In this document: piece by piece, positions 1,479 to 20,496 of the stretch
Position numbering within the stretch: position 1 is the stretch's first letter
How the letters are laid out: each line of letters starts with the position of its first letter
NCBI GenBank assembly: GCA_030537595.1
Contig: JAUNVR010000006.1
Span: forward strand, 1-64,000
Origin: Eubacteriales bacterium
Lineage (GTDB): Bacteria > Bacillota > Clostridia > Saccharofermentanales > DTU023
Length of the DNA: 64,000 bases
Reading direction: 5' to 3'
Notes under the pieces: model-generated
Told to the model about the DNA's origin: nothing
The model's input: the letters and a program-made list of their open reading frames with translations, nothing else
The model's database searches: none
Position numbers and translations under genes: made by a program

Positions 1479-3512
1479 TTAACCGTTGTTGTCATTCTGA
1501 TCGCCAGTCTGGTCGTCGTTTTGATCGCCAGTCTGATTCTCATCTTGGTTGAAGTCAGTGTTGTCAGGATTGTTATCCGCTGGCGGATTAGCTTCCTTGG
1601 CTTCTCTGACCTTCTGGACTCCAGCGTCATATTCTTCCTTAATCTCAGGTATATCCATCCATGAGTCGAGAATTTTGAAGGGACCTGACTCAGAAGCAGG
1701 GACTTTCCATGCTGAACCCGCAGGCATCGGGCTGTCCATCTCTGGTAGGGTCGGATTGTAACGCTTTAAGAATTCGTAGTAAATCTGATCGTCCTTACCA
1801 TAAATTGAGTTTAGGAACTGACGTGGTGTTTCATTCGGATCTGAATAGAAAGTGAGTTCAAAGAGATCTTCAACATCCTTATTCTCCTGCGGCTCCGGAC
1901 GCTGCTGTTCAGGTATCGGTTGAACCTGCGGCGGCTGCTTTTCCTCTGAGGGTTTGACGACCTCTTGGAGCTCGGTAGTCTGAGCTGTCGTTTCGTTCTC
2001 TTTATTCTTATCTTTACCACTCAAGAACTTACGCCCTAAGAAGAATATTGCTAAGAGTAGGATTAGCGCGATGACGCCGAGGATGATTAAGCGCTTAGTT
2101 TTCTCGCGCTTCTCATAGTCGTAGTCATCATAGTATTCATCGTAATACTCATCGCCATAACCGTCGTCATAGCCATCACCATAATCATCGGAATAGCCGT
2201 CATCATAGTAACCGTCATTATAATCATCATAGCCAGCATAAGTTTCACCATAGTCGGCTCCACCGTAGTCCTGGCCGGAGTAATCTGGGTCAGCGTAGTC
2301 ACCGTCCGCGTAGTTTGCTCCGTAATCTCCATGATAGCTATCGTCATAATTTTCACTGTAGTCTTCTGTGTAGTCATCCGCATATTCATCGGCAGCATAA
2401 TTCTGCGTCTGATAGTCGGGGCTAAACTGACTGTCTGATTCCTGATAGGCATCGTGTTCCGTGTAATCCGCATATTGATCGTCAGCATAATCCGCTGGCG
2501 GTGCAAATGCGGAATCATCATATTCAGTATTCTTCGCTACCGACCACGTGCCCGTGTCATGCTGATTATTATCATGTCTGTTACGGTCACCGTAGTTGTC
2601 ATTCCGTTTCATATTGTTTCTATTATCCTCCACGTTGTGGCTTTGGCCTTGTCCCGACTCTGACCGCTTCAATTCTTGCGGCGTGGGAGTTGAACCTGTG
2701 TTGAAGAGGCCGAGGTTTAAGCGGCCGGTCTTCGACTGTAAATTAACATCTTCAACGAAAGCTAGCAAGACTTGAAGTGAAACAGTAGGTGCCTTCGCTG
2801 CAGCAGCAGTCATTATTTGCTGTGCTGCTTCCATCTGATCCTCAGCTTCAAACAGCAGCCGGAGAAGCTCTCGTTGGCCAAGAGCCTCCAGTAATTCCCG
2901 ATTACATAAGATTACGCAATCGTTAGGTTTAACCTGCGCAATATTGGAGTATCGGATAGTACCAGCCACCCCTGCTGCGTAGTCATTGATACCTTCGATT
3001 GGGTTTCCATTATAATCGATAGCTTCTAATTGAAAGTCACTCTCAGTTAGAGGGTATAGTACATCGCCACGGTATAGTAAGGCGCAACCGGCCGTAGTGG
3101 TTACCGCAGCTATCTCACCTTCTTTAAGCAAAATGCCTGAGAACCAGGATTGTCTAACCCCATCCCTGGCCAAGGTTGCCCTACCTGTAACGTCCACGGC
3201 GACATCAGCTAAGTCATTAATCTGCTCGTCGATGTTTTTTGCGCTGCCGCGAACTTCGTTGTTCAGTTTTTCCAGAGCCGGAGCAAAAGACATATCTGCG
3301 GTTGCTTTCTGCTCATCCTTCGGGTGAGCAAATATACCGTAGAAAAAACCTCTATCTTCACGTACTGTAGTCATATCTACAGCGCGTGATTCACGCCGAC
3401 TCGGGAAGCGGCCATCCAGAAAATATGAATCTATAACAGCATCGTCTGGATGATAACGAGCATTAATTGTGCTGGCAATCCGCGTTCGTGCATAGCGGGG
3501 TACTTTAGCCAT
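1479..3512 (-). CDS. Membrane protein: degenerate PP2C-like domain, Tyr/Asp-rich linker, one membrane helix, LysM-like C-terminal domain
   Basis: The product has 677 residues and an AGGAGG site before the ATG. Residues 45-258 follow the order of a PP2C Ser/Thr phosphatase: an ED-RGFFYGIFA strand, AGCALLYRGD-LYPLTESD, then NDCVILCNRELLEAL and an alpha-helical end. The metal-binding Asp residues expected at DGHGG, SDGL and DN are not present (NREL replaces SDGL), so I infer a non-catalytic pseudophosphatase. Residues ~340-466 are an acidic linker dominated by Tyr, Asp and Gly. A membrane helix (about 473-493, RLIILGVIALILLL) follows a KREKTKR stop-transfer signal. Outside are a Pro/Gln/Glu-rich spacer, a domain (about 548-606) resembling LysM (DDQIYYEFLKRYNPTLP, MPAGSAWKVP), and an Asn/Asp/Gln tail. 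Family assignment is by eye; the architecture may link a cytoplasmic signalling domain to the cell wall. Confidence 0.7.
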   Translation of the reverse strand: MAKVPRYARTRIASTINARYHPDDAVIDSYFLDGRFPSRRESRAVDMTTVREDRGFFYGIFAHPKDEQKATADMSFAPALEKLNNEVRGSAKNIDEQINDLADVAVDVTGRATLARDGVRQSWFSGILLKEGEIAAVTTTAGCALLYRGDVLYPLTESDFQLEAIDYNGNPIEGINDYAAGVAGTIRYSNIAQVKPNDCVILCNRELLEALGQRELLRLLFEAEDQMEAAQQIMTAAAAKAPTVSLQVLLAFVEDVNLQSKTGRLNLGLFNTGSTPTPQELKRSESGQGQSHNVEDNRNNMKRNDNYGDRNRHDNNQHDTGTWSVAKNTEYDDSAFAPPADYADDQYADYTEHDAYQESDSQFSPDYQTQNYAADEYADDYTEDYSENYDDSYHGDYGANYADGDYADPDYSGQDYGGADYGETYAGYDDYNDGYYDDGYSDDYGDGYDDGYGDEYYDEYYDDYDYEKREKTKRLIILGVIALILLLAIFFLGRKFLSGKDKNKENETTAQTTELQEVVKPSEEKQPPQVQPIPEQQRPEPQENKDVEDLFELTFYSDPNETPRQFLNSIYGKDDQIYYEFLKRYNPTLPEMDSPMPAGSAWKVPASESGPFKILDSWMDIPEIKEEYDAGVQKVREAKEANPPADNNPDNTDFNQDENQTGDQNDDQTGDQNDNNG
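2115..2495 (-). repeat. In-frame Tyr/Asp/Gly-rich degenerate repeat tract
   Basis: Codons ~340-466 of the large membrane protein repeat short units such as DYADDQYADY and DDGYGDEYYDEYY. On the plus strand this shows as recurrent TCATCATAG, TCGTCATA and GTAGTC words. It encodes a highly acidic low-complexity linker next to the membrane helix. Confidence 0.8.
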
Positions 3513-3638
3513 ATCCTGCCTCCTAAGTAATTAATTGAATTCTTATTTACTAATTGTATCATAGAAAATCGACTTTCTTTGTCAATCTCCTTACGTTATT
3601 GAAATATTTCTGTATCATAATTCAGTCTATTTCTAAGC

Positions 3639-6449: not shown

Positions 6450-6532
6450 ACGCACCTCCGTTGATTCTCCTAGCTATGTTAAGATTAAGCCTGTGGTTAA
6501 GCCCATCAGAATTAATTAGGAGAGGCCTTCTC

Positions 6533-8509
6533 ATGAATAATATCATTATTGGCACAGCAGGTCACGTAGACCATGGTAAGAGCTCTTTGATCCGCGCCCT
6601 GACCGGGGTGGAGACCGACCGTTTGGCAGAGGAGAAGAAGCGCGGCATCACGATTGAACTGGGCTTTGCCTGGCTCGACTTGCCCGATGGTGGGCGCGCC
6701 GGAATTATTGACGTCCCTGGCCACGAGCGCTTTATCAGCAATATGCTGGCTGGAGCCGGCGGCATGGACTTAGCCTTATTGATTGTTGCCGCTGACGAAG
6801 GAGTTATGCCACAGACTAGAGAACACTTGGAAATTCTCTCCCTGCTTGGCGTCCCTCAAGGTATTATCGTCATTAATAAAGCTGATTTAGTCGATTCCGA
6901 GTGGCTCGAATTAGTTAGTGAAGATGTCCGCGAAAACTGCGTCGGAACCTTTCTCGAAAATGCCCCTCTCTACCAAGTTTCTGCCCAGACTGGCGCAGGC
7001 ATAGAAGAGTTGCGCGAGGCAATTTTCCAGGAACTTTCTCAAATCAAAGAAAAGAATCCAGACCTGCCCTTCCGCTTGCCGATCGATCGCGCCTTTGCCA
7101 AAGACGGCTTCGGCCTAGTCGTGACTGGAACCTGTCTTGAAGGCAGAGTTCAAAAAGGCGAAGAGCTCAGCCTCTATCCTGAAGCCGCTAAGCTGAAGGT
7201 GCGCTCAATCCAGGTCCATGGTCGAGAAGCTGAGCTGGGACAGGCCGGCCAACGCCTGGCAATTAATCTCGTGGGCGAGGCCAAAACCCAGGTCAGCCGT
7301 GGCAAGTGTCTAGCTCGCCTAGACTCCCTGATACCTACAGAGTATCTGGAGGTTCAAGTCTCAGTCTTACCATCATCAAAGTATTCAATTAAGACTGAAT
7401 CGAGACTCCATCTGCATCTGGGTGCTAGTGAGCAGCTTTGCCGAATCATCCTTTACGGCAAAAAAGAACTAAATCCCGGCGAGACTGCTGTCGCTCGTTT
7501 AAACCTCAGCGAAGCCATAGTTGCCAAGTACCAGGATCCCTTTGTCCTGCGCTTCTACTCACCGCTTTCTACAATCGCTGGCGGTCAAGTCCTCGACCCC
7601 TTTCCGCCAAAGCAGAGCCTCAGCGCGAAAGCCCGTGTTGAATTCTTGAATGCCTGGCAGGAAGCCTCAGATAAAGAACGTCTAGCCCTCGCAATAGACA
7701 GCCAAAGCCGTCACTACTACAAGTTAAAAACAGCTGTACTACGAGCGGGACTGGATGCAGTAAAAGAAACTGAGCTAGCTCAGTTAGTCGCTGAATTAAG
7801 TAGTGAAAAAAGGATTTATGAATTAAGTCCAAATCTTTACGTCTCAGCTGCCTTCCTCGAAAAAATGGGCCAAAGTGCCCAGGCTATCTTTGCCGAATAC
7901 CATCAAGCCCAGCCCCTCAGAGCAGGCATGCGTAGAGAGGAAGCTCGCAGTCGCATCGCCCCTAAGGTCGGACTCGAAATCCAGGATGGTCTTTTGAATG
8001 CATTAACTGAACTTAAATACCTAAAAAACATAGATAAGCTAGTCGCAGATTATAACTTTAGTCCTCAACGCTCCCCCGCTGTAAGCGCGTTTGAAAGCCA
8101 TATTCTAAAGGCCTACGAAGCCGCAGGCTTTGAACCCTTCGTCCGAGAAGAAGTCGAAGCTAAGTTGATTACAGACCGTAACGCAGCCGAATTTGCAGCT
8201 CTAAAACAAGAGCTCACAGCAAAGGGCCAAAAGGAGAGTTCTAATAGTGAAATCCTCGATTTACTCTTAGAAGATTTAATTGAGCAGGGTGAATTGATTA
8301 GATTGAATTCAGAACTTTTAATTTCAGCTACTTATTACAATCAGGCGAAAGAGATTGTCCGCTCTACTATCGAGGCTGAAGGTGCATTACGTCTAGCAGA
8401 TTTCCGTGACCAGATTAAGAGCAGCCGCAAGTATGCAGTCGCCATTCTCGAAAAGATGGATAAAGATAAGCTGACCAAGCTACGTGGTGACTTACGCTTC
8501 TTAATCTAA
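6533..8509 (+). CDS. selB: Selenocysteine-specific elongation factor SelB
   Basis: SelB is the EF-Tu-like GTPase that brings Sec-tRNA(Sec) to UGA codons followed by a SECIS hairpin. The start is the ATG at 6533 after a TTAGGAGAGG site, giving 658 residues starting MNNIIIGTAGHVDHGKSS. G motifs are GHVDHGKSS (G1), the EKKRGITIELGF switch, DVPGHERF (G3) and NKAD (G4). After the EF-Tu-like domains 2-3 and the SelB-specific domain comes a winged-helix C-terminal region (about residues 380-658) that binds the SECIS RNA. It is the only plus-strand protein gene of the selenium island and ends 16 bases from the convergent selA stop. It is needed to read grdA, grdB and selD in this window. Confidence 0.97.
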   Translation: MNNIIIGTAGHVDHGKSSLIRALTGVETDRLAEEKKRGITIELGFAWLDLPDGGRAGIIDVPGHERFISNMLAGAGGMDLALLIVAADEGVMPQTREHLEILSLLGVPQGIIVINKADLVDSEWLELVSEDVRENCVGTFLENAPLYQVSAQTGAGIEELREAIFQELSQIKEKNPDLPFRLPIDRAFAKDGFGLVVTGTCLEGRVQKGEELSLYPEAAKLKVRSIQVHGREAELGQAGQRLAINLVGEAKTQVSRGKCLARLDSLIPTEYLEVQVSVLPSSKYSIKTESRLHLHLGASEQLCRIILYGKKELNPGETAVARLNLSEAIVAKYQDPFVLRFYSPLSTIAGGQVLDPFPPKQSLSAKARVEFLNAWQEASDKERLALAIDSQSRHYYKLKTAVLRAGLDAVKETELAQLVAELSSEKRIYELSPNLYVSAAFLEKMGQSAQAIFAEYHQAQPLRAGMRREEARSRIAPKVGLEIQDGLLNALTELKYLKNIDKLVADYNFSPQRSPAVSAFESHILKAYEAAGFEPFVREEVEAKLITDRNAAEFAALKQELTAKGQKESSNSEILDLLLEDLIEQGELIRLNSELLISATYYNQAKEIVRSTIEAEGALRLADFRDQIKSSRKYAVAILEKMDKDKLTKLRGDLRFLI

Positions 8510-8525
8510 GCTTAGAGCGATTGAT

Positions 8526-9983
8526 TTAGGAATTTTTGGCAAAGATTTTGAGAATGGAGCGACAGAGCTCCTCCTCTTCATCTTCCCTCACGCAGCGCAA
8601 ATCAAAGAGCAGGCAATCCTTGCGAATGCAGGCAACAATTGGTGGATCCTGCTGTCTCAGCTCGGCTTCCACCTCTGCAGCGCTTCTGCCAATTTGGGCT
8701 GGGTCGAGTGCAATGGCACAGGAAGGAAATGCCTGGCCTGGAGCTGAACCCCCGCCGATTTCACCTTCGCTTGAAACTAGGCTGGCTTCTACCCCCTGAG
8801 CTTCTAATCGGTCAATAAAAATATCTGAGCGCGATTCGAGCTCAGCCAAGCTCTTTTCTAAGAAGGCAAAGATTGGTAATTCAAGCTTTAATCTCTCGGG
8901 ATCGAGATAAGCTCTCAGCACCGCCTCTAGAGCGGACACAACCATCTTGTCAATCCTAAAGGCCCTGGTGTACGGATTCTTCTTCAGTCGCTCGATATAT
9001 TTTTTCTTGCCGACAATAATTCCAGCCTGTGGGCCACCCAGAAGTTTATCTCCAGAAAAACAAATCAAGTCGGCCTTAGAGTTTAGCGCATCTCGAACTG
9101 ATGGCTCCTCCGGTAAAAGCCGCTTTGCCTCCGGATGCAATAAGCCTGAACCGAGATCGTAAACAAAAGGTAGCTCGTGGCGCTCTGCAATCTGAGCAAG
9201 CTCCTTCGCTTCAAGCTCAGAGTAGAAGCCAGTAATTCTAAAGTTACTTTGGTGAACCTTTAAGATTAGAGCGGTTTCGGGATTTATCGCCCGCTCATAG
9301 TCGTAGTCGTGGGTCTTATTCGTCGTCCCCACCTCACGCAAGCGACAATTGGCCTTTAACATCACATCCGGGACCCTAAAGGCACCGCCAATTTCAACCA
9401 ATTCGCTACGTGAAACGATGACTTCTTTCCCCTCAGCTAATTCATTCAAAATCAGGAGCACCGCAGCCGCGTTGTTATTCACGACAAGTGCTGCCTCCTG
9501 CCCGGTCAACCTAGCAAGGAGTGGCTCCAATGCTTGGTAGCGCTCACCGCGCTCACCTGCCGCTAAATCATATTCGAGATTGCTGTAAGAAATTAATGAC
9601 TCGTAGACATGACGCGCAGCCAGATCGCCTAAAGGAGCCCGCCCCAAGTTAGTGTGGAGAATTACTCCAGTTGCATTGATTACTGGGCGAAAACTAAAGC
9701 CCTCATTCAAGGATAATTCGCTTTTTATGCGCGGCCTAAGAAAGTCTGCCCAGGCCTCACTTTGGCTGCAGTCTTTCTTTTCTATGTCTAAAGTTAAAAG
9801 AAAATTTTCTAAATCAAGGGCCAGCTCATCACTCAATAGCTGCTGCCGCAAATCTTGCAAAATATTGCGCAAAGCATCGGTCAAGGCCCGCTCACTATAT
9901 CCTGAGCGCAAGTGCTGCATCGACTCACTACGTAAGAGGCTATCAATACCAGGTAAAGCCCTGAGCCAATTTTCTTTAGACAT
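8526..9983 (-). CDS. selA: L-seryl-tRNA(Sec) selenium transferase SelA
   Basis: SelA is the PLP enzyme that converts seryl-tRNA(Sec) to selenocysteyl-tRNA(Sec) with selenophosphate; the family forms a decamer. From the ATG at 9983 (GGGAGG, 6 bases upstream) it has 485 residues, near the family norm. Seen are the family signature NATGVILHTNLGRAPLG, the EVGTTNKTH segment, and the PLP-lysine region FSGDKLLGGPQAGIIVGKK. An upstream TTG-type extension of 8 codons is rejected because it includes the ribosome binding site. It is the last gene of the selD-yedF-DUF3343-selA cluster, 30 bases after the DUF3343 gene. Confidence 0.97.
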   Translation of the reverse strand: MSKENWLRALPGIDSLLRSESMQHLRSGYSERALTDALRNILQDLRQQLLSDELALDLENFLLTLDIEKKDCSQSEAWADFLRPRIKSELSLNEGFSFRPVINATGVILHTNLGRAPLGDLAARHVYESLISYSNLEYDLAAGERGERYQALEPLLARLTGQEAALVVNNNAAAVLLILNELAEGKEVIVSRSELVEIGGAFRVPDVMLKANCRLREVGTTNKTHDYDYERAINPETALILKVHQSNFRITGFYSELEAKELAQIAERHELPFVYDLGSGLLHPEAKRLLPEEPSVRDALNSKADLICFSGDKLLGGPQAGIIVGKKKYIERLKKNPYTRAFRIDKMVVSALEAVLRAYLDPERLKLELPIFAFLEKSLAELESRSDIFIDRLEAQGVEASLVSSEGEIGGGSAPGQAFPSCAIALDPAQIGRSAAEVEAELRQQDPPIVACIRKDCLLFDLRCVREDEEEELCRSILKIFAKNS

Positions 9984-10013
9984 TAAAACCTCCCTGCCTC
10001 GGAACAAAGTTGA

Positions 10014-10286
10014 TTAAAGCTTAAATAAAAGCTTTCGGATCTCCTCATATTCGAGAGCTTCTTCTTTAATCAGAGCTTCGATTAGGCTTGCGTTTTCAAT
10101 TGCTGTCATAAAGGCCTGACCGCAATCGGCGCTGAACTCTCGCGGCTTTGGAATTAGCCGCCCTGAAATCCCAGCTTCTTGTGCAGCAGAAGCAAAAATT
10201 TGCGCTTCCGTACTGCCGCCAAAACTAATCACTAATCGCTCTTGGGTTTTTCGCTCTTCTCTCTGCACGTCGATTCTTGACTCCAT
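10014..10286 (-). CDS. DUF3343 protein, putative Se/S carrier-like protein
   Basis: A 90-residue protein that matches the DUF3343 pattern: a beta strand RLVISFGGSTEAQIF, then a turn and the diagnostic PREFSADCG, where the single Cys is thought to carry sulfur or selenium. Family members occur in selenium-utilising bacteria beside yedF and are annotated as putative Se/S carriers; the role is not proven. Its ATG lies 2 bases after the yedF stop, so translation is probably coupled. It precedes selA by 30 bases. Confidence 0.85.
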   Translation of the reverse strand: MESRIDVQREERKTQERLVISFGGSTEAQIFASAAQEAGISGRLIPKPREFSADCGQAFMTAIENASLIEALIKEEALEYEEIRKLLFKL

Positions 10287-10288
10287 TA

Positions 10289-10909
10289 CTATGGTCTGAT
10301 AACCACAGCTGCAGTCATCAATATCTCAACTATATCATACATATTTGAGATCTCACCGATTTCTAATTCCTCTTTTAGGCCGAAATGCTCCAGGCAAGTG
10401 CCGCAAGCAATTACTTTAACCCCATTTGCTGAGAGAGTCTTAAGATCTTCTATAACTGCAGAAGCACGACAGCAAAGCTTGACCCCAGTATTATAAAAAA
10501 TCAGCTGATCACAGAGTTCATCTTGTTGACTTAGGGCAAATAGAAAAGAGGCAATTAATTTATCGCCTAAGCGATCATCACCACTACCCATCTGCTCAGA
10601 GCCAATGAGTACCACTCTTTTGGCCTTGCTTTGAACTGGCTCGGGCAGTGCTTTTGCGCTAAATGGACTCGTCTTTCCACTGCCACTGCGCGATATTTTA
10701 ACTTCAATCAAATCTTCAGAAGAACTTTCAACTCTACTCTCAGCGCCCTGGCTTTGAGCATATTTAGAAACGTTCTGGCTTGCTACCTGATTGTCGACCT
10801 GAATCAGAAAGTCCTGACAATCTGGGTTTTCTGCCAGGGCCTTTTTAGTCATCACGACTGGAAAAGGGCAGGCCTGGCCCCTAGCATCTACGATAATTGG
10901 CTCGTGCAT
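10289..10909 (-). CDS. yedF: Selenium metabolism protein YedF
   Basis: The product has 206 residues and two parts. Residues 1-75 are a TusA/SirA-like domain with the CPFP motif (C14) in DARGQACPFPVVMTKKAL; the rest (about 95-206) is a DsrE-like domain with VVLIGSEQMGSGDDRLG and a later CGTCLEHF. Both domain types handle persulfide or perselenide. The two-domain YedF form is associated with selenium-utilising organisms, and a selenium delivery role is inferred from that pattern. A GGAGG site precedes the ATG; the gene follows selD after 30 bases and abuts the DUF3343 gene. Confidence 0.92.
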   Translation of the reverse strand: MHEPIIVDARGQACPFPVVMTKKALAENPDCQDFLIQVDNQVASQNVSKYAQSQGAESRVESSSEDLIEVKISRSGSGKTSPFSAKALPEPVQSKAKRVVLIGSEQMGSGDDRLGDKLIASFLFALSQQDELCDQLIFYNTGVKLCCRASAVIEDLKTLSANGVKVIACGTCLEHFGLKEELEIGEISNMYDIVEILMTAAVVIRP

Positions 10910-10939
10910 TTATACTTCCTCCAAACTTCCATCTGCTAC

Positions 10940-11992
10940 TTACTTAAGGATAATTCTAGCTCCAGCTGTATATTCACAGACCCGCCCGATGATTGCGAAG
11001 TCTTCATTTTCTCGCTCGAATTCAGCCAAGCAGGCTGCTGCATTCTCCGGGCTCATGCTGAAGAGTAAACCACCCGAGGTCTGCGGGTCAAAGACTAGAT
11101 CGACCAGAGCTTCCTTGACCCCTTCGCGCGCCTCAAAGCGCTCTCCCACATAGGCTTTATTCTGATAGGCGCCAGCTGGAATTATGCCCATCTCAGCCAT
11201 TTCTTCTGCCTGAGCTAAAAGTGGAATAGCCTCTGCCTCGAATTCAAGCTTGACCCCGGAAGCTTCCGCCATCTCTAAGGCATGACCGACTAAGCCGAAA
11301 CCAGTCACATCAGTTGCCGAGCTCGGCTTAAATTTACGCGCAAGCTCCATGCCTCTCCGGTTTAGTTTAGCCATCGTCTCAATCACTTCAGACTCAGTTT
11401 CTGCCCTGATTAGATTAGCCTTGGCAGCTGTGCTGAGCACACCACTACCGATAGCCTTGGTCAGAACTATCAGGTCTCCGACTTGGGCCGTACTGTTACT
11501 TAGTAATTCGTCTGGATGGCAGACCCCGACTACGGATAAGCCGTACTTCGGCTCAGTATCCTCTATGCTGTGCCCACCGAGAATATTAATCCCTGCTTCC
11601 AAGGCCTTTTCATTGCCACCGCGCAGGATTTCTTGAACCAGGGCTAAGTCTAGGCAGGAAGGAAAAGTTAGGATGTTTAGAGCCATCAAGGGAGTTCCAC
11701 CCATAGCATAGATATCTGAGATGGCATTGGCAGCTGCTATCCGCCCATAATCGTAGGGATTATCAACTAAGGGAGGAAAAAAGTCCATGGTCTGAATGAT
11801 CAGTAAATCATCCCTTATCTTATATACAGCCGCGTCATCACTAGCTTCAAAACCGACCAGGACATTGGGGTCAGGCTTCTGCTCAAGCTTAGCTAGCAAA
11901 GTTGAAAGGACCTCCGGTCCTATCTTCGCGCCTCAGCCCCCAGCCTTAGTGTATGAGCTAAGTTTAACTTCTGCTTGCTCTTTGTCTGCCAT
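10940..11992 (-). CDS. selD: Selenide, water dikinase SelD, itself a selenoprotein (Sec20)
   Basis: SelD makes selenophosphate from selenide and ATP, the selenium donor for SelA. The real gene starts at the ATG at 11992 (AGGAGG just upstream) and reads through an in-frame TGA at 11935-11933 as residue 20, giving 350 residues; ordinary ORF calling gives only the part from 11899. The context KAGG-Sec-GAK is exactly the catalytic Cys/Sec site of the family with the essential Lys three residues later. Downstream are the ATP-binding DDAAVYKI, MDFFPPLVDNPYDYGRIAAANAISDIYAMGG and GGHSIEDTEPKYGL. Upstream is the terminator of grdD, so selD probably starts its own transcript or receives read-through. 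Its dependence on Sec makes SelD production depend on selenium. Confidence 0.97.
11907..11921 (-). promoter_or_regulatory. Predicted bacterial SECIS hairpin of selD
   Basis: Eleven bases after the UGA of codon 20 the mRNA forms a 6-bp stem AGGACC/GGUCCU with a GGA loop. The spacing matches that known for the upper SECIS stem in bacterial mRNAs, the site SelB binds. The structure lies wholly inside the coding sequence. Confidence 0.65.
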
Positions 11993-12072
11993 ATCATCCT
12001 CCTTTTAGACTTATCAAAATAAGTAATTAATTCTCTAGCCAGTAATTTGTTTTCATAATTAGCCATAAAAGC

Positions 12073-12098
12073 AAAATTCCCCCGGCGCTTGCCGGGGG
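12073..12098 (-). terminator. Intrinsic terminator after grdD
   Basis: A GC-rich 8-bp stem CCCCCGGC/GCCGGGGG with a 4-base loop (12079-12098), followed on the minus strand by AATTTT and then GCTTTT. It separates the glycine reductase genes from selD. Confidence 0.88.
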
Positions 12099-12129
12099 AT
12101 AGTTTAAAGTCTAAGGCAAAACTTTTACT

Positions 12130-13296
12130 TTAGGCTTCTTCAATGTAACCTGCTGCGGCTAAAAGCTCGCGTGATCTAGCTAGGTTCTCTGCACTGATTC
12201 GAATAATCGGACCGGTGCAACCCATGCCAGTTTCTGCGTAAATCTTTTCCTTCCACAGAACCTTCGCTGCGTCCTCCAAGTCGAGAACATCAATTCCAGC
12301 GATTTGCTCGGCCACCGGTTCGGCTGGCGGGCAAACGACTTCTTCTGCAGAATCTTTGGCCTGAGCAGACTTGCTTCTGGCAGCAATAATGCCTTCCAGA
12401 CCTGCTTTTTCAGCAGCAGCAATTTCTGCGTTGACCTTTTCTTTCAGCTGACCGTTAACTAAGTCGGAAGCATAGATTAAGGCATTTGCAATAAGTGGTG
12501 CACCAGAGGCTCTCGAGATAATCAGAACCTTGCGGTCATAGCCCTTACCGACGCCCGGACCATAACCGTAGCCGACAGTTTCGAAGCTACCACCGGTGGA
12601 ATAGGCTGCGAAAAGTTTAATAATCGCATTACCGGTCAAAGTATCCATAACCATTACGTCGGCTGAACCTTTAAGCAGGTCGTTACCACGCATGATCATG
12701 CCACCATCGGACCTTGCGCTTTCGGCAAAGTTGATCTCGTAGCCCTTCTCCTGAAGCTCTTTCAGAACCATCTCGGCCTGACGAGCACCGTTCAGATTTA
12801 AGAGCCCAACGCTCGGATTCTCTATCCCACAAGCCTTAGCTGTAGCAATCCCAGCGACGGCATTGCGAACCAGACCTTCAACCAGGTCGGTAGCACTGGT
12901 TCCAGTAGTGGTGGCGAGGAACATTTCCCGGCCGTTTGCCGGACAAACAACCCGTCCCACAGTGGCCACACCAATTGGGAATGGATAGTGCATTGCTACT
13001 GCAGCCTGTGCTTCACCGCTGTCGAGAAGTTTTTCCATCGCAGCAAAGCAAGAATCTTCGTCATGTGCTTCAACCTTAGTTACACCACAGTTTTCAGGCA
13101 CGTCAATTGAGCCGATGAAATAGACCGAGACACCGCGTTTGGCAGCCATTATGGCACCTTGGAGAACGTTCTCTTCACCGTGTTCAGAGCCGATCCCCGT
13201 CACAGCCACTTTGACCGCACCGAAGCGGCCACTCTCGAGAGCATCGGCCAGTTCGAGGAAAGTGTTAGCGACAGTGTTTTGAATTTCTTTCATCAT
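12130..13296 (-). CDS. grdD: Glycine reductase complex component C, subunit GrdD (alpha)
   Basis: GrdC and GrdD form protein C, which releases acetyl phosphate from the carboxymethyl-selenoether on GrdA. GrdD, a PlsX-related protein, carries the Cys that accepts the acetyl group. Seen here are 388 residues, VAVTGIGSEHGEENVLQGA near the start, a glycine-rich GYGYGPGVGKG, and the C-terminal GMGCTGP motif with Cys360 at the position of the known active-site Cys of the family. The gene begins 5 bases after the grdC stop, so the two are translationally coupled, and it is followed by a strong terminator. Confidence 0.96.
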   Translation of the reverse strand: MMKEIQNTVANTFLELADALESGRFGAVKVAVTGIGSEHGEENVLQGAIMAAKRGVSVYFIGSIDVPENCGVTKVEAHDEDSCFAAMEKLLDSGEAQAAVAMHYPFPIGVATVGRVVCPANGREMFLATTTGTSATDLVEGLVRNAVAGIATAKACGIENPSVGLLNLNGARQAEMVLKELQEKGYEINFAESARSDGGMIMRGNDLLKGSADVMVMDTLTGNAIIKLFAAYSTGGSFETVGYGYGPGVGKGYDRKVLIISRASGAPLIANALIYASDLVNGQLKEKVNAEIAAAEKAGLEGIIAARSKSAQAKDSAEEVVCPPAEPVAEQIAGIDVLDLEDAAKVLWKEKIYAETGMGCTGPIIRISAENLARSRELLAAAGYIEEA

Positions 13297-13301
13297 GCAA
13301 C

Positions 13302-14855
13302 TTACTCTTCTTTCTGGAGGATACCTTCGGCAAATGAGCGGAGTGATTCACCGATCAGTTTGCGAATTTCCGCCTTGGATACACCTGCGGTCTCACTTTC
13401 GCCCTGACCGTCGTTCTTAACCAGCATGAAGGAGATGCCATCAAAGAGGTTTGTCATACGACCTAGGAAGAGTGAGCCTTTACCGATAATCATGACGCGT
13501 TTCATCTCGCCATTTCTCAGCGCTTCTGAAGCGTGTCCGATATAGGGTGCGCCTGAGGGGATGTGACCCTGGGTCGGGGCAAAGCCCGGAAGTCCGTGCT
13601 CTTCGGTAAACTTATTTAAGTCTTTACGATCGAGCTCGCCACGTTTTACCGCGAGGGCTGCAATCATCTTGAAGTTGGCTAAGGGCACGTCGCCTGCACC
13701 GGCAGGTTTGGTGATATCGGGGTTCTGCATCTCAGGTGAGAATTTATCAACATCGAGTACTGACAGGCCAGCCTTATCCAGCGGATCGGTGACTAGAGCA
13801 CTGATTACTGCCTGCGGTGCGGAACCGGTACCAACTGCGTGACGTCCGACATGATCGAGGTCGATAATCGGGTTAACGCCGTCATCCTGAGCAATTACGA
13901 TTGCGAAGCCGCCGAGGCAGTCTTCGAGAATTGGCAGGTCGCGCTTGACGTGATCTTTACCATTCATGCCGAGCTTTGCCGTGCTGCCACCGGCAGTAAC
14001 TGCAACAGCTTTAAAGACGCCTGCTTTGACCAATGCTGCGGCTTCAACTAAGGCGTGTGAGGGAGCTGCACAGAATGATCTGGTATCTGAACCTGAGGCT
14101 GAGGGGAGATTGACAATTTCAGCTGCGGCTTTAGCAAAGTTACCGCCACCACGCTGGTTCATATCACCACAAGCTTCTTCTGAGCAGTCGATTACGTATT
14201 CAATGTCTTCAACCGGTAAATCTGAATTCTTGACCACATGAGCAAGAGCCAGGACTGATGAAGCTTTGGAGACCATGTTCTCATGCATGACGTGGGCGTT
14301 TAGGTTCTGGTCGATATCGTGTGCGCGACGGACACAGCCGACGAGCTTATCTTCGTGATACAGACCTTCGGCATGCTCATCGTTCACGAGATGTTCAATT
14401 TCGCTCAACTCATGACCCTCTTTGAGTCTGCCCTTCATTAAATCGGTGACCAGTTCCCATTTTTCAAATTGGGGTCTGACCTTAGCTACGAATTCTTTGT
14501 CTAAGAAGACGAGGTCAAATTCGTCAACTACCTGCATGAGCAGTAGAAATTCTTCCTCCGGCATAATTTCACCGAATTTATTGTAGCGACCATTGGTTTC
14601 AATTTGCTTATCATACCAGGGGAATTCAACTTCCTTTAGCTCCTCCGGGGTGATGCCGCCGATGTAGCACTGGTTCGGTGCGTAGGCTAAGACATCCTCG
14701 TATTTACGAAGGTGTTTTCTAATTTCCTTCAGGTATTCGGATTCGGGATTAACCACTCTTTCTGTGGTTTGGGTCGTACCGTTGTAGATTACCATCTCGG
14801 GTACGTGTGCCAAGACGTAGGCACTGCCTTTGATTACAGGTTTCATTCTGCTCAT
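13302..14855 (-). CDS. grdC: Glycine reductase complex component C, subunit GrdC (beta)
   Basis: GrdC is the beta-ketoacyl-synthase-III-like partner of GrdD in protein C. The ATG at 14855 follows AAAGGACC and gives 517 residues; an ATG 5 codons earlier lies before that site and is less likely. Recognisable segments are PVIKGSAYVLAHVPEMV at the start, YVIDCSEEACGDMNQRGGGN, and SASGSDTRSFCAAPSHAL, with a thiolase-fold Cys. Its upstream spacer contains two hairpins, one of them terminator-like, so its expression may be tuned separately from grdA. Confidence 0.96.
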   Translation of the reverse strand: MSRMKPVIKGSAYVLAHVPEMVIYNGTTQTTERVVNPESEYLKEIRKHLRKYEDVLAYAPNQCYIGGITPEELKEVEFPWYDKQIETNGRYNKFGEIMPEEEFLLLMQVVDEFDLVFLDKEFVAKVRPQFEKWELVTDLMKGRLKEGHELSEIEHLVNDEHAEGLYHEDKLVGCVRRAHDIDQNLNAHVMHENMVSKASSVLALAHVVKNSDLPVEDIEYVIDCSEEACGDMNQRGGGNFAKAAAEIVNLPSASGSDTRSFCAAPSHALVEAAALVKAGVFKAVAVTAGGSTAKLGMNGKDHVKRDLPILEDCLGGFAIVIAQDDGVNPIIDLDHVGRHAVGTGSAPQAVISALVTDPLDKAGLSVLDVDKFSPEMQNPDITKPAGAGDVPLANFKMIAALAVKRGELDRKDLNKFTEEHGLPGFAPTQGHIPSGAPYIGHASEALRNGEMKRVMIIGKGSLFLGRMTNLFDGISFMLVKNDGQGESETAGVSKAEIRKLIGESLRSFAEGILQKEE

Positions 14856-14884
14856 TAGGTCCTTTCTCATATTTATTTATCTTG

Positions 14885-14917
14885 AGTACTTAAGCTGATT
14901 TGCCGGGCTTTAGTACT
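14885..14917 (-). other. Hairpin in the grdC leader
   Basis: An inverted repeat AGTACTTAAG ... CTTTAGTACT (10-base arms with one internal mismatch, 13-base loop) ends about 30 bases before the grdC start. It may shape translation or protect the 5' end of a grdCD transcript. Confidence 0.5.
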
Positions 14918-14926
14918 TACATGCGT

Positions 14927-14991
14927 AAAAAACCACCTTCGAAACTCTCATAGCTAGGAAGATCCCAACCAGGAACGTTGCGAAGGCGGTT
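14927..14991 (-). terminator. Wide-loop terminator-like structure between grdA and grdC
   Basis: Reading on the minus strand, AACCGCCTTCG and CGAAGGTGGTT pair over 11 bp with one G-U wobble, enclose a 39-base loop, and are followed directly by a run of six T. It begins 17 bases after the grdA stop. Because grdCD lie downstream without an obvious new promoter, partial termination is the simplest reading; the large loop leaves room for a competing fold. Confidence 0.6.
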
Positions 14992-15007
14992 AGAGTGCGA
15001 ATCAGTA

Positions 15008-15478
15008 TTAGAATTTGCAATACTCTTCGCGGATCTCCTGCATTTCCTCTGCAATTTCATCCACGTCGAGCACCATTTCCATCATGCTGACTTGTTCCTC
15101 ATAGACTGCTTCGTCAAATTCAGATTTAACTTCTTCCTCGCACACGTGGTAGCATCTGAGTCCCAACGAGACTCCTGTCAATGGACCTGCAAATGTCGGG
15201 TCGCCTGCCATACATGTTTCAGCGGCGAGACCGGCACCTTCACCATCAGCTGCACCGAGCAGAACAACAATGTTTTCTGCGCCGTGCTCTTCAGTGAAGC
15301 CGAGAACGCGTTTTTGGTTCTCAAGGTCCATTGCACCTGCGGCGGTTCAGACGAAGCACTCCGTTGAGGAGTAGATGACTTCTGCACCTGCGGACTCTGC
15401 ACAGAGAGCAATCGCCGGGCCGGGAATTCCATCGCGGTCACCGATAACGATGACTTTAGCACCATCTAAAATAGCCAT
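15008..15478 (-). CDS. grdA: Glycine reductase selenoprotein A, GrdA (Sec44)
   Basis: GrdA is the small shared selenoprotein that takes the carboxymethyl group from GrdB on its selenocysteine and passes it to GrdCD. The gene starts at the ATG at 15478 (GGAGG upstream) and reads through an in-frame TGA at 15349-15347 as Sec44 in the context ECFV[14 protein letters not shown], with Cys41 three residues before, the family's CxxU redox motif. The full product has 156 residues, as expected. A conventional ORF caller finds only the last 107 codons. A weak 4-bp stem 8 bases after the UGA (AGGU/ACCU) and a 6-bp GAGAAC/GTTCTC stem further on are SECIS candidates. It sits between trxA and grdC. Confidence 0.98.
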
Positions 15479-15518
15479 ACATAACCTCCTTTCCGCAAAC
15501 ACTTGCTGGTTAAGAACA

Positions 15519-15547
15519 GCGGGCTGATTGCTTGCAATTCAGCCCGC
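15519..15547 (-). other. Strong hairpin in the trxA-grdA spacer
   Basis: Arms GCGGGCTGA and TCAGCCCGC are perfect, and the loop itself contains TTGC/GCAA, so nearly the whole 29 bases can pair. No T run follows on the minus strand (TGTTCTT). It is more likely an mRNA processing or stability element before grdA than a terminator. Confidence 0.65.
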
Positions 15548-15599
15548 ACTCTTTATACCATTTTTAAGCTATCTAAGCAATACATGAGCAGCTATTTGC

Positions 15600-15920
15600 T
15601 TACTCTGCGTATTGTTTTACTAGCTCGGCAACTGCCTCTTTAGTGCAGGCTTCTTTGACCAGCTCAGTGACCTTCTCACCGTTCTGGTAAATCGCCACTA
15701 CTGGCAGTCCGAGAATCTTCTGGCTGATGGCCAGACGACGAGCCTTACTGGTGTTCAGGCAGGTGAATTTAATCTTGTCGCCATACTCTTCTGCAAGAGC
15801 TTCAACGTGGGGCTTTAAGGCAGCGCAAGGTACGCAGCCATCACCAAAGAAGTCAACCAAAACGGTTCCTTCTGCTTGCAAGACTTCTTCTTCAAAATTT
15901 TTCCGATCGAGTTCTAGCAT
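15600..15920 (-). CDS. trxA: Thioredoxin of the glycine reductase system (CVPC active site)
   Basis: It passes electrons from TrxB to the oxidised Sec/Cys pair of GrdA. The ATG at 15920 follows AGGAGG by five bases and gives 106 residues; the longer open frame upstream encodes no thioredoxin sequence. The redox motif is C29-V-P-C32 in FFGDGCVPCAALKP rather than the usual CGPC; this variant is known from glycine-reductase-linked thioredoxins. The cis-Pro region reads ILGLPVVAIYQNG. It lies between trxB and grdA, flanked on both sides by strong mRNA hairpins. Confidence 0.95.
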   Translation of the reverse strand: MLELDRKNFEEEVLQAEGTVLVDFFGDGCVPCAALKPHVEALAEEYGDKIKFTCLNTSKARRLAISQKILGLPVVAIYQNGEKVTELVKEACTKEAVAELVKQYAE

Positions 15921-15939
15921 AATTCCTCCTATGAAACTA

Positions 15940-15972
15940 CCGCCTGCTACAGCTGCTGCTGTCCGCAGGCGG
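15940..15972 (-). other. Strong hairpin in the trxB-trxA spacer
   Basis: Arms CCGCCTGC and GCAGGCGG enclose an inner ACAG/CTGT stem. The hairpin lies between the trxB stop and the trxA ribosome binding site and has no T run, suggesting an mRNA stability or processing role. Confidence 0.6.
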
Positions 15973-15983
15973 ATATTAAACAA

Positions 15984-16937
15984 TTATTCTTCGTGACTAA
16001 AGTTTTCTTGGATATAGTGGTCGCACTGGATTCCTGCAATGGCACCGTCTGCTGCTGCAGTCACGACCTGACGCAAGCTCTTCTTGCGGATATCACCGGC
16101 AGCAAAGACGCCAGGGATATTGGTCTTCATGTCTTCGTCAGTTAGGACATAGTCCCACTCACATTCGACCTGATCTTTGAACAGCTCGGAGTTCGGTAAG
16201 TAGCCAATGAATACGAAGCAGCCAAAGATGCCATCATCTTCGTCAGCCTTAATTACGCGGCGCTCACCGGTCTTGGTGTCTTCAACGGTCATGGTGTCGA
16301 GTACACCCTCACCCTCGAGGTCAACGACTACTGAGTTCCACATGAATTCGAGATTCTCAGTGTTGAATGCACGCTCTTGGATGCTCTTGACAGCACGCAG
16401 TTCATCACGGCGGTGAATCAAGGTAACCTTACGTGCGAATTTGCAAAGATACATGGCTTCTTCAACAGCTGTGTCACCACCACCGACGACAAAGACTTCG
16501 AGATTTTCGAAGAAGTTAGCATCACAGGTTGCACAGTAGGAAACGCCTTTACCGGTAAATTCGTCCTCACCGGGGCAGCCAATTTTTCTGGAGTGTGCGC
16601 CGGTTGCCAGAATTACTGTACGACCTTCGTAGACTGTGTCACCACAATGAACCTTCTTAATTCTACCTTCGAGTTCGAGCTTAGTTGCGGTATCAGTTAC
16701 GCGTTCGCAACCGAAACGCTCAGCCTGCTTGGTGAAACGCTCAACTAATGCGGGGCCGCTTTCGCCTTCGGGCATTTGGCCAGGATAGTTCTCAATCTCA
16801 TCGGTAATCGCGATTTGACCACCGTCAGATCCCTTTTCGATGATCAGGGTTGACAGGCGCGAACGACCGGTGTACAAGCCTGCTGCCAGTCCTGCCGGGC
16901 CTGCGCCAAGGATAATGACATCGTAAATTTTAGACAT
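15984..16937 (-). CDS. trxB: Thioredoxin reductase TrxB
   Basis: This FAD enzyme uses NADPH or another reduced donor to reduce thioredoxin. The ATG at 16937 (AGAGGAAAGAGG upstream) gives 317 residues. Motifs are the FAD-binding ILGAGPAGLAAG at the N-terminus, C135-A-T-C138 in GVSYCATCDANFF, the second nucleotide-binding GGGDTAVEEA and the C-terminal FAD motif GVFAAGDIRKKSLRQ. The NADPH-site HRRDELRAVKS has the expected basic residues. The leader is about 125 bases long and contains a perfect small hairpin (AATACAT/ATGTATT, 16954-16969) just before the binding site. It follows the grdB terminator and appears to have its own promoter. Confidence 0.96.
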   Translation of the reverse strand: MSKIYDVIILGAGPAGLAAGLYTGRSRLSTLIIEKGSDGGQIAITDEIENYPGQMPEGESGPALVERFTKQAERFGCERVTDTATKLELEGRIKKVHCGDTVYEGRTVILATGAHSRKIGCPGEDEFTGKGVSYCATCDANFFENLEVFVVGGGDTAVEEAMYLCKFARKVTLIHRRDELRAVKSIQERAFNTENLEFMWNSVVVDLEGEGVLDTMTVEDTKTGERRVIKADEDDGIFGCFVFIGYLPNSELFKDQVECEWDYVLTDEDMKTNIPGVFAAGDIRKKSLRQVVTAAADGAIAGIQCDHYIQENFSHEE

Positions 16938-17068
16938 AGTGCCTCTTTCCTCTAATACATTTATGTATTTGCGGACCACGCTATAGCCGTACAGCCACGC
17001 ACCGCAGCACAACCGCCGTCGTTATCGGCAACTCTGCTGCGAGGCGCTCATCTGCGAGCACTCGTTTT

Positions 17069-17096
17069 ATTCTACCAAATAAAAGCCCTCCGTAAA
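17069..17096 (-). promoter_or_regulatory. Probable promoter of trxB-trxA-grdA
   Basis: TTTACG (17096-17091) and TAGAAT (17074-17069) are 16 bases apart, downstream of the grdB terminator and about 130 bases before the trxB start. The long leader it would produce is GC rich with several small stems. Confidence 0.5.
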
Positions 17097-17162
17097 AGCT
17101 TTTGGCCGGGCAGATAAGGAATTAACTATCTGCTGTCAGGATTCAGGATTTTAGTGGAAAAT

Positions 17163-17196
17163 AAAACGGCAGAGGTAAGCTAGCTCACCTCTGCCG
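17163..17196 (-). terminator. Intrinsic terminator after grdB
   Basis: Arms CGGCAGAGGT and ACCTCTGCCG (10 bp, perfect) with a self-complementary AGCTAGCT-type loop, followed on the minus strand by TTTTATTTT. It lies 15 bases past the grdB stop, inside the glycine reductase gene cluster. Confidence 0.88.
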
Positions 17197-17210
17197 CGAG
17201 CCGTTAAAAT

Positions 17211-18521
17211 TTATGACTCAAAGATCGTTTGGTCTGAAACTTCAGTTTCTAGGGCGCGGAGTGATTTCTCAACGAGTTTGCTCCGCAGCTCATATTCTTC
17301 CTCACGACTCAGTCCAGGATTGCCAAGCGGGTGAGGAATTGCGACTGCAGGTACAATCCTGTTTGCACCAACTGTCATCGAAATCGGAGTGACTGTACAT
17401 ACGTGGACGACAGGCAGACCGGTTCTTTCAATTTCTTTTACCATCGTTGCGCCGCAACGAGTACAAGTTCCTCAGGTAGAGGTGAGGATGACTGCATCAA
17501 CGCCATCGGCCTTGAGCTTCTTGCCAATTTCCTCACCGAACTTCTTGGCTGAGGCAACGGCGGTACCGTTACCTACTGTGGTGTAGAAGTGATCATAGAG
17601 CTTGCCGATTTTGCCATCGGCTTCGAGTTTACGCAGCACGTCTACGGGCAGGACGCGGTCTGAGTCTTCATTTGCATAGACCGGGTCGTAGCCGCCGTGA
17701 GCGGTCTCGTAGGTATCCGCATCGAGATCGGTAACGCCGGCGATATTGTACTCACCAAATTTAGAGGCGTTTGAAGATTCGATGTGATCGGGGTTGCCCT
17801 TCGGGACAATACCGCCAGAGGTGACCAAGGCGATTGTTGCTTTGCTCATCTCTTTAATTGCTGCACCTGGTTCGACACGGTCGAATGAGGGCATCGGATA
17901 CTCTGTGGTGTAAGCCTTGCCTGCGAGCTTCTTGTTCAGCATTTCTACTGCTCTTAAAGCACCGCGCTTCTCTTCAAAGAAGTTGACTCTGATGCCGTTC
18001 GGCAGGTAGCCTTCTTCTGCTGATGAGCCAACGGCTTCACCCTTTGCCAGCTTCAAGCCTAATTTGGCCATCGGCGGCACTGCTTTTCGCATGCCGGCTG
18101 CGGAGTCGCGGGTGGCGATGATGTAGACTTTGTCCTTAAACATATCGGCACCGGGGTTCTCCTCGTACATACCGGTGATTGCGGGAATTCCCAATTCTTC
18201 CTTAACTGCGGCTGTGATAGTGGCGCAAGCGACACCATAGCGGCCGGCGTTAAAGGCAGGTCCAGCGATGAAGAGGTCAGGCTTTTCTTCCTTGACCATG
18301 TTCAAGACGGTTTCTTTGGCCTTATCCATGTTTTCGCCGAAGTAGGAGTCGCCACAGACGATCGTTGCTACGATTTCTGCTTGCTCACCAAATTCGGTGT
18401 TAAAAGCCAGACCGGGACCTACAGCGCCTTCGCGCTTCTCGGGCTCGATGTGAGCCATCTCTTCACCACCGACTTGCGCGAAGAACTGGTTAATATAATG
18501 AACAACACGAAGTTTTGTCAT
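17211..18521 (-). CDS. grdB: Glycine reductase component B selenoprotein GrdB (Sec350)
   Basis: GrdB is the substrate-specific selenoprotein subunit of protein B; with GrdE it activates glycine and delivers the carboxymethyl group to GrdA. The ATG at 18521 leads a 436-residue product read through an in-frame TGA at 17474-17472 as Sec350, in STU-GTCTRCGA, a UxxCxxC motif. Ordinary ORF calling breaks it into a 349-residue piece and a 77-residue piece. The N-terminus (LRVVHYINQFFAQVGGEE) and SGGIVPKGNPDHIESSNASKFGEY are family hallmarks. It starts 14 bases after the grdE stop and is followed by a terminator. Confidence 0.98.
17445..17459 (-). promoter_or_regulatory. Predicted bacterial SECIS hairpin of grdB
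   Basis: Twelve bases after the UGA of codon 350 the mRNA contains a perfect 6-bp stem CGUUGC/GCAACG with a GGC loop. The placement fits SelB-binding SECIS elements, and the size is close to the predicted selD hairpin. Confidence 0.6.
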
Positions 18522-18535
18522 TTCAGTCTCCTTTC

Positions 18536-19816
18536 TTAACGGGCACTGAGCTTGTTAAAGCCCATCTCGTTAGTTGCGCCGGTGATCATCTGGAGTTCAC
18601 CTTCAATGCTGCCATCTGCCTGTAAGCTGCCATCGTGGCCGCCGGCAATGACGTTCACAAATTCGGTGCTGCCGATAACCCGCTCCAGTGCGGGCAGCTT
18701 GACGACCATGTTCGCGTTACCACCGGTAACCACTGCGTCAGCAGCAGCATCGGCGTCAGCAAGTGACTGTGACTTGCCGTCCTGACCGGCGTACTCATCA
18801 GTGATGATGACGGTCTTGATGCCACGCTCTTCAAGCTTCTTGCAGTTCATAATCAGGTCGGTATCGGGGTTGCCGAAGCCTTCCTGTGAAACGATAGCGC
18901 CGTCCAGTTGGAGGAACTCAGCCAGCTTGGCGGTCCAGTCTGAGGAGCGCATCTTGTCAGCAAGATAGACGTTTTCGTTCGTGATGATCACACCGACAAA
19001 GTTCAGCGTCTTGCCATGTTCCTTAAACAGTTCGGCGATGACCGGGTTGTTCAAGTGATGGAAGGTCGTATTCTTGTCACAAGCTGAAACACAGTTACCG
19101 GAGATAATTGCACCGTCCATGGTTTCGGTCGGCATAATCATGGTGGTTAAACTTTGTTTCATATCGACACCGTATACGTAGGTATCGTGTAAGAGCCCTT
19201 GGCTCTGGAGCATCATGACATAGCCTACACGCGGCAGGTCGGGATACTTTTCGATGCCCTCCTTAATGCCGAGTGTTTCAAATTCTTCGGTTTCGTCTGC
19301 TTTGAGTTCACGAGAGAGCTCACCCAGCATTGTGGCCACTTTGAGGCCAGCTAGACGGGCAGCTTTTTCGTACTGGTGAGGGTGAATGCCTTCTTTAGGC
19401 TCCACGACCAATACGAGGTTGTTAAACTGAGAGAACGGGGTATAGTCAGCACCCGGGCCGGTCATATCAATAATGCCTTCCTGGAAACCAACGATCTTAC
19501 CGGCGGTGACTACGTTGACGCCACGCAAAACATGAGTTTTGCCGCTGCCAACTGTGTCTACCTTATGCATCCAGCCTGGAAAAACGCCACCCGGACCCTC
19601 GACTTTACAGCGGGGTTGGATGACGTCTTTGACCGGAGTAATTCTGCATGATTCTCCCGGTTTCGTGATCTCGAGACGAGCTGCTTTCAGATGTTCATCC
19701 TGGAGAACTTCAGCGACGATTTCCTTCTCATTTACGTACAAGATACCATTTTTGATTTCTGACTTGTCCGCAAACTCGACACCGGAAATGTCGATGTAAC
19801 CTAGTTGAAGCTTCAT
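18536..19816 (-). CDS. grdE: Glycine reductase component B proprotein GrdE
   Basis: GrdE is made as a proprotein that cuts itself into two subunits and forms a pyruvoyl-type carbonyl group, which binds the amino group of glycine as a Schiff base. The product has 426 residues. The processing site is Cys242 in SGNCVSACDKNT, identical in position to that of characterised family members. Other conserved stretches are QPRCKVEGPGGVFPGW and GFGNPDTDLIMNCKKLE. An AAAGGA site lies 10 bases before the ATG. It is the second gene of the cluster, 77 bases after grdX and just before grdB. Confidence 0.97.
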   Translation of the reverse strand: MKLQLGYIDISGVEFADKSEIKNGILYVNEKEIVAEVLQDEHLKAARLEITKPGESCRITPVKDVIQPRCKVEGPGGVFPGWMHKVDTVGSGKTHVLRGVNVVTAGKIVGFQEGIIDMTGPGADYTPFSQFNNLVLVVEPKEGIHPHQYEKAARLAGLKVATMLGELSRELKADETEEFETLGIKEGIEKYPDLPRVGYVMMLQSQGLLHDTYVYGVDMKQSLTTMIMPTETMDGAIISGNCVSACDKNTTFHHLNNPVIAELFKEHGKTLNFVGVIITNENVYLADKMRSSDWTAKLAEFLQLDGAIVSQEGFGNPDTDLIMNCKKLEERGIKTVIITDEYAGQDGKSQSLADADAAADAVVTGGNANMVVKLPALERVIGSTEFVNVIAGGHDGSLQADGSIEGELQMITGATNEMGFNKLSAR

Positions 19817-19893
19817 CTATAGATCTTCCTTTCTTTTATTATTAAAGTCCGCAGCAGCCTAAGCCGTGCTTGAACCTTAATGCATGCTGAGGG

Positions 19894-20337: not shown

Positions 20338-20345
20338 CAGCCGTT

Positions 20346-20374
20346 ATTATACTTAATTTTATAGTAATTTGCAA
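20346..20374 (-). promoter_or_regulatory. Main promoter of the glycine reductase genes
   Basis: TTGCAA (20374-20369) and a perfect TATAAT (20351-20346) are 17 bases apart. The predicted start point falls on or within two bases of the grdX ATG. The selC promoter lies about 75 bp away, facing the opposite direction. Confidence 0.82.
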
Positions 20375-20446
20375 GGCATATGCACGAGGCTTGAGGGCTA
20401 GATTCCCCTCTTTATAGTTAATCTGGAAGTATTTTTTCAGCTTTCC

Positions 20447-20475: not shown

Positions 20476-20496
20476 ATCTAAGCATTTACATCTAAT

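Follow-up and report, generated by a model that had tools for sequence, protein, structure and literature searches.

Eukaryotic signalling offers many familiar pseudoenzymes, and among the PPM pseudophosphatases of eukaryotes TAB1 acts as a kinase adaptor and PHLPP2 is reportedly a pseudophosphatase (PMC12002173); to our knowledge, few pseudoenzymes have been described in bacterial Ser/Thr phosphorylation. The bacterial PP2C/PPM phosphatases Stp1, IreP, PrpC and PstP belong to a family in which Asp residues at PrpC-type positions are the metal ligands, and we know of no LysM domain in PstP. The PASTA kinases PrkC and StkP are bitopic, joining a cytoplasmic signalling domain to extracellular wall-binding repeats, and MapZ-type division anchors, which are PASTA kinase substrates, are also bitopic and link the cytoplasm to the wall; no PP2C-like domain is known to us in anchors of this type. 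A 2025 survey (PMC12088040) counts 119 types of extra domain in bacterial PP2Cs and details the eight commonest; its text notes a TM helix in PstP and contains no occurrence of LysM. Neither a bacterial PP2C-LysM protein nor a LysM pseudophosphatase was found among the literature matches listed.

The window (the whole 64,000-nucleotide stretch of DNA analysed, part of a 1.55-Mb genome assembled into 35 contigs) encodes a putative wall-tethered bacterial PPM pseudophosphatase that occurs order-wide and belongs to a wider PP2C-TM-LysM family, itself apparently undescribed. Its head resembles the Stp1/IreP/PrpC/PstP phosphatases in fold, element order and profile homology, but the DG, SDG and DN metal ligands present in those enzymes are lost in it, and the PrpC of this genome is a lone domain, unlike the multi-part window protein. 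With TAB1 and PHLPP2 it shares a PP2C fold that lacks a working metal centre, whereas those proteins have no wall tether and unrelated partners. The PASTA kinases offer the same bitopic arrangement of inner signalling domain and outer wall-binding domain, but built from a kinase fold and with PASTA in place of LysM; MapZ-type anchors resemble it in their bitopic layout. The resemblance extends to clostridial PP2C-TM-LysM proteins (L228, L124, L218-L230), for which no family name was found: these share the layout, a joint tree and, in most rows, the pattern [DN]-F/Y-x-x-N/D-G after the first motif, and differ in having intact or partly eroded motifs, shorter linkers and a length of mostly 440-540 aa. 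A sequence-only reading of this locus had known of no described protein with this layout. The literature matches agree with that claim, but the layout is not unique to the window: nearly every genome of the order has it, and it recurs across other clostridia, partly with intact motifs.

The features of the gene are collected in Table 1. The open reading frame begins with ATG and lies between ispD and mscL, and the promoter-like site closely 5' of it ranked first among the 14 promoter candidates in the scanned stretch.

Table 1. The putative pseudophosphatase gene and its features, in window coordinates; residue numbers are those of the encoded protein.
Feature	Coordinates	Strand	Basis or observation
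Whole gene, 677 aa, from PP2C-like pseudophosphatase head through disordered linker and TM helix to LysM-like tail	1479..3512	-	
Promoter-like site TTGACA-16-TATGAT, near-consensus sigma-70-type	3558..3585	-	consensus match only
Shine-Dalgarno AGGAGG, 6 bases 5' of ATG	3519..3524	-	sequence
PP2C/PPM-fold head, residues 9-257	2742..3488	-	AlphaFold, PDB matches, profile comparison with PrpC
D28 = PrpC D22 (R-x-x-N-E-D motif)	3429..3431	-	only acidic ligand retained; D in 66/71 rows
A62 = PrpC D41 (DGxGG motif)	3327..3329	-	D in 0/71 rows
A141 = PrpC D126 (GDSR/GDTR motif)	3090..3092	-	D in 11/71 rows
R205 = PrpC D200 (S/T-D-G motif)	2898..2900	-	D in 0/71 rows
V244 = PrpC D239 (SDN motif)	2781..2783	-	D in 6/71 rows, N never next
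Acidic low-complexity linker, residues 263-467	2112..2726	-	composition; tandem repeat at 2138-2207
Single TM helix, residues 475-493	2034..2090	-	hydropathy 3.25
LysM-like domain, about residues 551-607	1692..1862	-	alignment with relatives' LysM, model, PDB matches
Asp/Asn/Gln-rich C-terminal extension, residues 640-677	1479..1595	-	sequence

Sequence searches with the window protein gave no Pfam family at E-values up to 1 and no PP2C-type NCBIfam model, and searches of the PDB by sequence, including hmmsearch with the profile of the order, gave no PP2C match for the head. NCBIfam matches to IcmG/DotF, FliL and others lie far under the cut-off on the TM helix and its surroundings and were set aside as composition matches; PriCT_1, which appeared in 3 of 33 heads scanned with Pfam, was taken as chance together with a few other matches. 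The AlphaFold model of residues 1-272, built from a 51-sequence alignment, has a PP2C fold (mean pLDDT 89.1, pTM 0.88). Its best Foldseek match in the PDB is 2cm1 (E 1.2e-8, TMq 0.56), and the 50 matches listed are PP2C/PPM structures or PPM-containing complexes with the sole exception of 4oic, whose title says soluble protein only. Structural alignment with VIA gave Z 16.9 against the Streptococcus agalactiae phosphatase STP (2pk0; rmsd 3.4 over 191 residues, 9% identity), 16.5 against PstP (1txo) and 13.7 against the TAB1 pseudophosphatase (2pop), so that the PP2C-like N-terminal fold proposed from the letters of the sequence was borne out. When the profile of the order's heads alone was compared with that of the kin of this genome's PrpC, the similarity was weak (probability 42, E 2.6e-4), and it became strong when intermediate sequences were added (probability 98, E 1.8e-13). 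By this profile comparison the head is homologous to PrpC, a relationship that becomes clear only with intermediate sequences in the profile.

The catalytic positions were read off a joint alignment of 171 sequences with PrpC as reference numbering, and the counts for the order in Table 1 are taken over the 71 rows that are distinct over the first 265 residues, one of which is gapped at some positions. Measured against the Asp ligands of the NED, DG, SDG and DN motifs that mark active PP2C/PPM enzymes, three of the four core Asp residues of the head are lost (A62, R205, V244) and D28 is kept; this one place excepted, the result agrees with the earlier claim that the metal-binding Asp residues are gone. 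At the position of PrpC N240 no row of the order has Asn (0 of 71). Other positions of the former active site are fixed: N204, at the place of PrpC S/T199, is Asn in 69 of the 71 rows, and Q247 is invariant in one alignment of the order (A1) and nearly so in another (A2, from which row L087 was excluded for a misplaced start). That some former active-site positions are fixed is evidence against free decay. Both a fold unrelated to PP2C and an intact catalytic set had been looked for as grounds to abandon the sequence-only reading; neither turned up, the predicted fold being that of PP2C and none of the 71 rows having a complete set. As judged from the alignment, the metal centre of the head is dismantled throughout the window's order. 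The head, with its predicted phosphatase fold, lost catalytic residues and conserved domain, fits the description of a pseudophosphatase and would be expected to be inactive in vitro.

The stretch between the head and the membrane had been described as about 125 residues of Tyr/Asp/Gly repeats. Tyr, Asp and Gly indeed make up 80 of the 125 residues from 341 to 465 (64%), while the maximum in 1000 shuffles of the protein was 52, but this richness is not family-wide: the Tyr/Asp-rich linker is confined to two closely related genera, one of them the window's, and most of the family is without it. The Tyr/Asp repeat was rejected as the functional part, since D/E/R/P/S or A/P predominate in the linkers of other genera. 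Most relatives have an acidic linker, and the conserved property is that it is acidic and disordered, rather than its Tyr/Asp composition. In each of the 64 distinct complete relatives a single strong TM helix follows the head, reached through a linker of 50-659 residues (median 188), and the membrane helix expected in the window protein is likewise present. In one genus (g8; L043-L048) the linker reaches 600 residues or more and the whole protein 1,030-1,089 aa.

When 52 tails were scanned with Pfam, LysM was recognized in 41 and a bacterial SH3 domain in 4, and 7, the window's among them, were assigned to neither LysM nor SH3_3. For the window's tail Pfam gave no match; its tentative assignment as LysM-like, as proposed earlier, is supported by three observations. 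Set beside its relatives' LysM sequences, it shows the characteristic LysM pattern with an invariant Asn and Pro in an alignment (A6) of 29 LysM-type tails from which the SH3 tails and several tails with over-long flanks were left out. The model of the tail, of modest confidence (pLDDT 74), shows a strand-helix-helix-strand core, and its PDB matches are weak, with mostly LysM among the best (Foldseek E 0.033 at best, VIA Z at most 5.4). In four relatives of a single genus (L016, L027, L011, L018) an SH3 tail replaces the LysM, a clean domain swap in an orthologous protein. Such an exchange of LysM for SH3 suggests that selection on the tail acts to preserve wall binding. Given a wall domain outside and a single helix, the head would lie inside the cell, so that the layout predicts a cytoplasmic head and an extracellular wall domain.

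The gene has a match in 58 of 59 genomes belonging to the order (Saccharofermentanales in GTDB), a count that takes in the window's genome, and head matches free of internal stops were likewise found in 58 of 59. A protein search located relatives in Mageeibacillus sp. MAGs, in Clostridiaceae MAGs and in Oscillospiraceae bacterium HV4-5-C5C. The head (about residues 1-262) of the aligned relatives is 35-83% identical to that of the window protein, and the head alignment of 51 sequences has a mean column identity of 58% and 28 invariant columns. Against the nearest relative, dN is 0.13 in the head, where dS is saturated and hence no dN/dS can be given, and 0.48 in the linker, which therefore changes faster than the head.

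Searched across the class, the profile of the order matched 30 of 291 genomes, members of the order counted in. A wider profile, which also picks up ordinary PrpC, matched 296 of 391 genomes across the class and 308 of 398 across the phylum, many of the latter matches being PrpC-like frames of 240-290 aa. Among the class matches are proteins of other clostridia, mostly of 440-690 aa, with the PP2C-TM-LysM layout. Pfam recognized LysM in 9 of 10 chosen class proteins in one scan, the frame of L123 being without a tail, and in 10 of 10 in another; among 40 fetched class loci, LysM was seen in 16 by pattern, in L224 by Pfam and in L230 by eye, and was not seen in the other 22, several of which are short soluble PP2Cs and three of which lie at a contig end. 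The heads of these relatives range widely in state. L228 combines a PP2C domain that looks intact (Pfam E 4.7e-17) with a TM helix and two LysM domains and matches the NCBIfam Stp1 model at E 1.1e-55, under the model's cut-off; Pfam PP2C is above cut-off in L124, L222 and L228. All four core Asp residues are present in L124, L218-L221, L224, L227 and L230, some are lost in L118-L127 (except L124) and in L195-L207, and most are lost in L240-L244, these rows having been chosen by similarity and frame length, so that the proportions intact and lost are not estimates for the population. L208-L210 are members of the window's order. Other degenerate clostridial PP2C-like proteins (L248-L250, L233-L236) have a TM helix and no recognized LysM, and some have Pro/Thr-rich tails.

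In a tree of 83 of the 171 aligned rows, hand-picked to cover the groups and computed by a quick method, the window's order forms one clade (SH-aLRT 100, stem 2.09) within the PP2C-TM-LysM set, with which the head shares a common origin; its sister group is unsure, because the order joins L238 and L239 on long branches and long-branch warnings attach to L237 and L245. The intact and lost catalytic states require at least seven changes on this tree, a minimum that by itself does not separate gain from loss. The direction from intact to lost is inferred from the PrpC outgroup. The simplest reading of these sequences is an ancestral wall-tethered phosphatase whose catalytic residues would have been lost repeatedly, with the window's order as the most complete case.

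Candidate partners for such a protein are encoded in the genome. A 681-aa PASTA kinase directly adjoins an intact-looking 249-aa PrpC there, among genes identified by eye as rsgA-like, rlmN-like and 16S rRNA methyltransferase-like, and across the 59 genomes of the order a kinase match was found in 58 and a PrpC match in 56, some of these being partial or to related kinases and phosphatases. Co-retention with prkC is little informative, because both genes are near-universal. The suggested check for a neighbouring PASTA kinase gene came out negative: the prkC-prpC pair lies on contig C1 and the pseudophosphatase gene on C35, and the local neighbours ispD, radA and mscL are housekeeping genes that are not conserved across the order. 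Gene neighbourhood was discarded as a functional clue, since it varies across the order (ispD/radA, alaS-like, tRNA nucleotidyltransferase-like, aminotransferase-like and others); apart from the ispD, radA, mscL and sel matches, neighbours were named by eye from sequence starts.

The reading tentatively preferred, which we hold at somewhat short of even confidence, is that of a bitopic pseudophosphatase, tethered to the wall, whose head docks onto components of Ser/Thr phosphorylation signalling. Such a protein could couple wall state to cytoplasmic Ser/Thr phospho-signalling, as the sequence-only reading had suggested. Outside the cell, LysM (SH3b in one genus) would hold the protein to peptidoglycan, one helix would span the membrane, and the long, disordered, acidic linker would give the PP2C-shaped head its reach within the cytoplasm. 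This head would derive from an active wall-tethered PP2C phosphatase and, with most of its metal ligands gone, would not be expected to perform PP2C chemistry; it would most likely dock non-catalytically at sites of wall growth. Its partner would be what the ancestor dephosphorylated, either PrkC, the PASTA kinase, or one of the kinase's phosphorylated clients, and docking would recruit that partner or shield it from the active phosphatase PrpC; both the partner and the direction of signalling are what we infer. In favour of docking are the PP2C fold, the profile homology to PrpC and the loss of Asp residues in a constrained domain, together with the uniform layout of head, linker, TM helix and tail, the LysM and SH3 tails, the intact-motif relatives outside the order, and the PASTA kinase gene that adjoins an intact prpC here, with matches to both in nearly all relatives. 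Against it stand the absence of linkage to prkC/prpC, the differing neighbours across the order, the weak profile homology of the order on its own, and a window tail with no Pfam LysM and a model of modest confidence.

The missing linkage fits better with the main rival, a possible but less probable account in which the protein is a structural anchor between wall and membrane and the head is an interaction platform for a protein of cell division or morphogenesis, with no role in Ser/Thr phosphorylation. The bitopic layout, long acidic linker and wall-binding tail of all complete relatives, the LysM/SH3 swap and the near-universal retention in the order would all be expected of such an anchor. 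It has more difficulty with relatives of the same layout that keep the PP2C motifs (L228, L124, L218-L221), which indicate that the ancestor probably acted in phosphatase signalling and so make a residual link to it the simpler reading. An improbable further account takes the fixed residues D28, N204 and Q247 as an altered pocket that would bind a nucleotide, a phosphopeptide or a different metal. The near-fixation of these former active-site positions speaks for it; against it, various other residues stand where the DG, SDG and DN ligands used to be, and the fixed residues may be structural. That the gene is a former phosphatase in the process of being lost is hardly credible: catalytic residues have been lost in several lineages, as such decay would have it, but the stop-free head matches in 58 of the 59 genomes, the strong conservation of the head and the gene's own promoter-like site all run counter to it.

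A broader and rather doubtful reading is that these proteins form an undescribed third arm of PASTA-kinase signalling in clostridia, in which wall-tethered PP2C-TM-LysM phosphatases would have become pseudophosphatases more than once and, in the window's order, would serve as a near-universal reporter or marker of wall state that works through binding, to the kinase or to phosphorylated proteins, and not through dephosphorylation. The window protein may be a wall sensor or anchor that evolved from an enzyme. The family presents a graded series from an intact-looking enzyme to a fully dismantled head, all on the same conserved and wall-tethered scaffold, which allows it to be asked what a phosphatase domain offers the cell wall once dephosphorylation is lost. 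It is also a possible wall-facing regulator overlooked by surveys of PP2Cs, which would miss the family because degenerate heads score under the cut-offs of the family models.

Elsewhere in the window, a selenium and glycine reductase cluster spans positions 6461-20593. It includes SelA, an AIRS-family gene resembling selD, a TusA/DsrE fusion, GRDB and Gly_reductase genes, and FA_synthesis and DUF5940 genes, which we take to be GrdD/GrdC-like; by eye, thioredoxin and thioredoxin reductase genes are also present, and the gene at 6461 resembles selB. A tRNA-SeC lies at 20497-20593. The GrdB frame (17202-18521, minus strand) halts at a TGA, and reading this codon as selenocysteine gives a protein of 436 aa with U at residue 350, in the context S-T-U-G-T-C.
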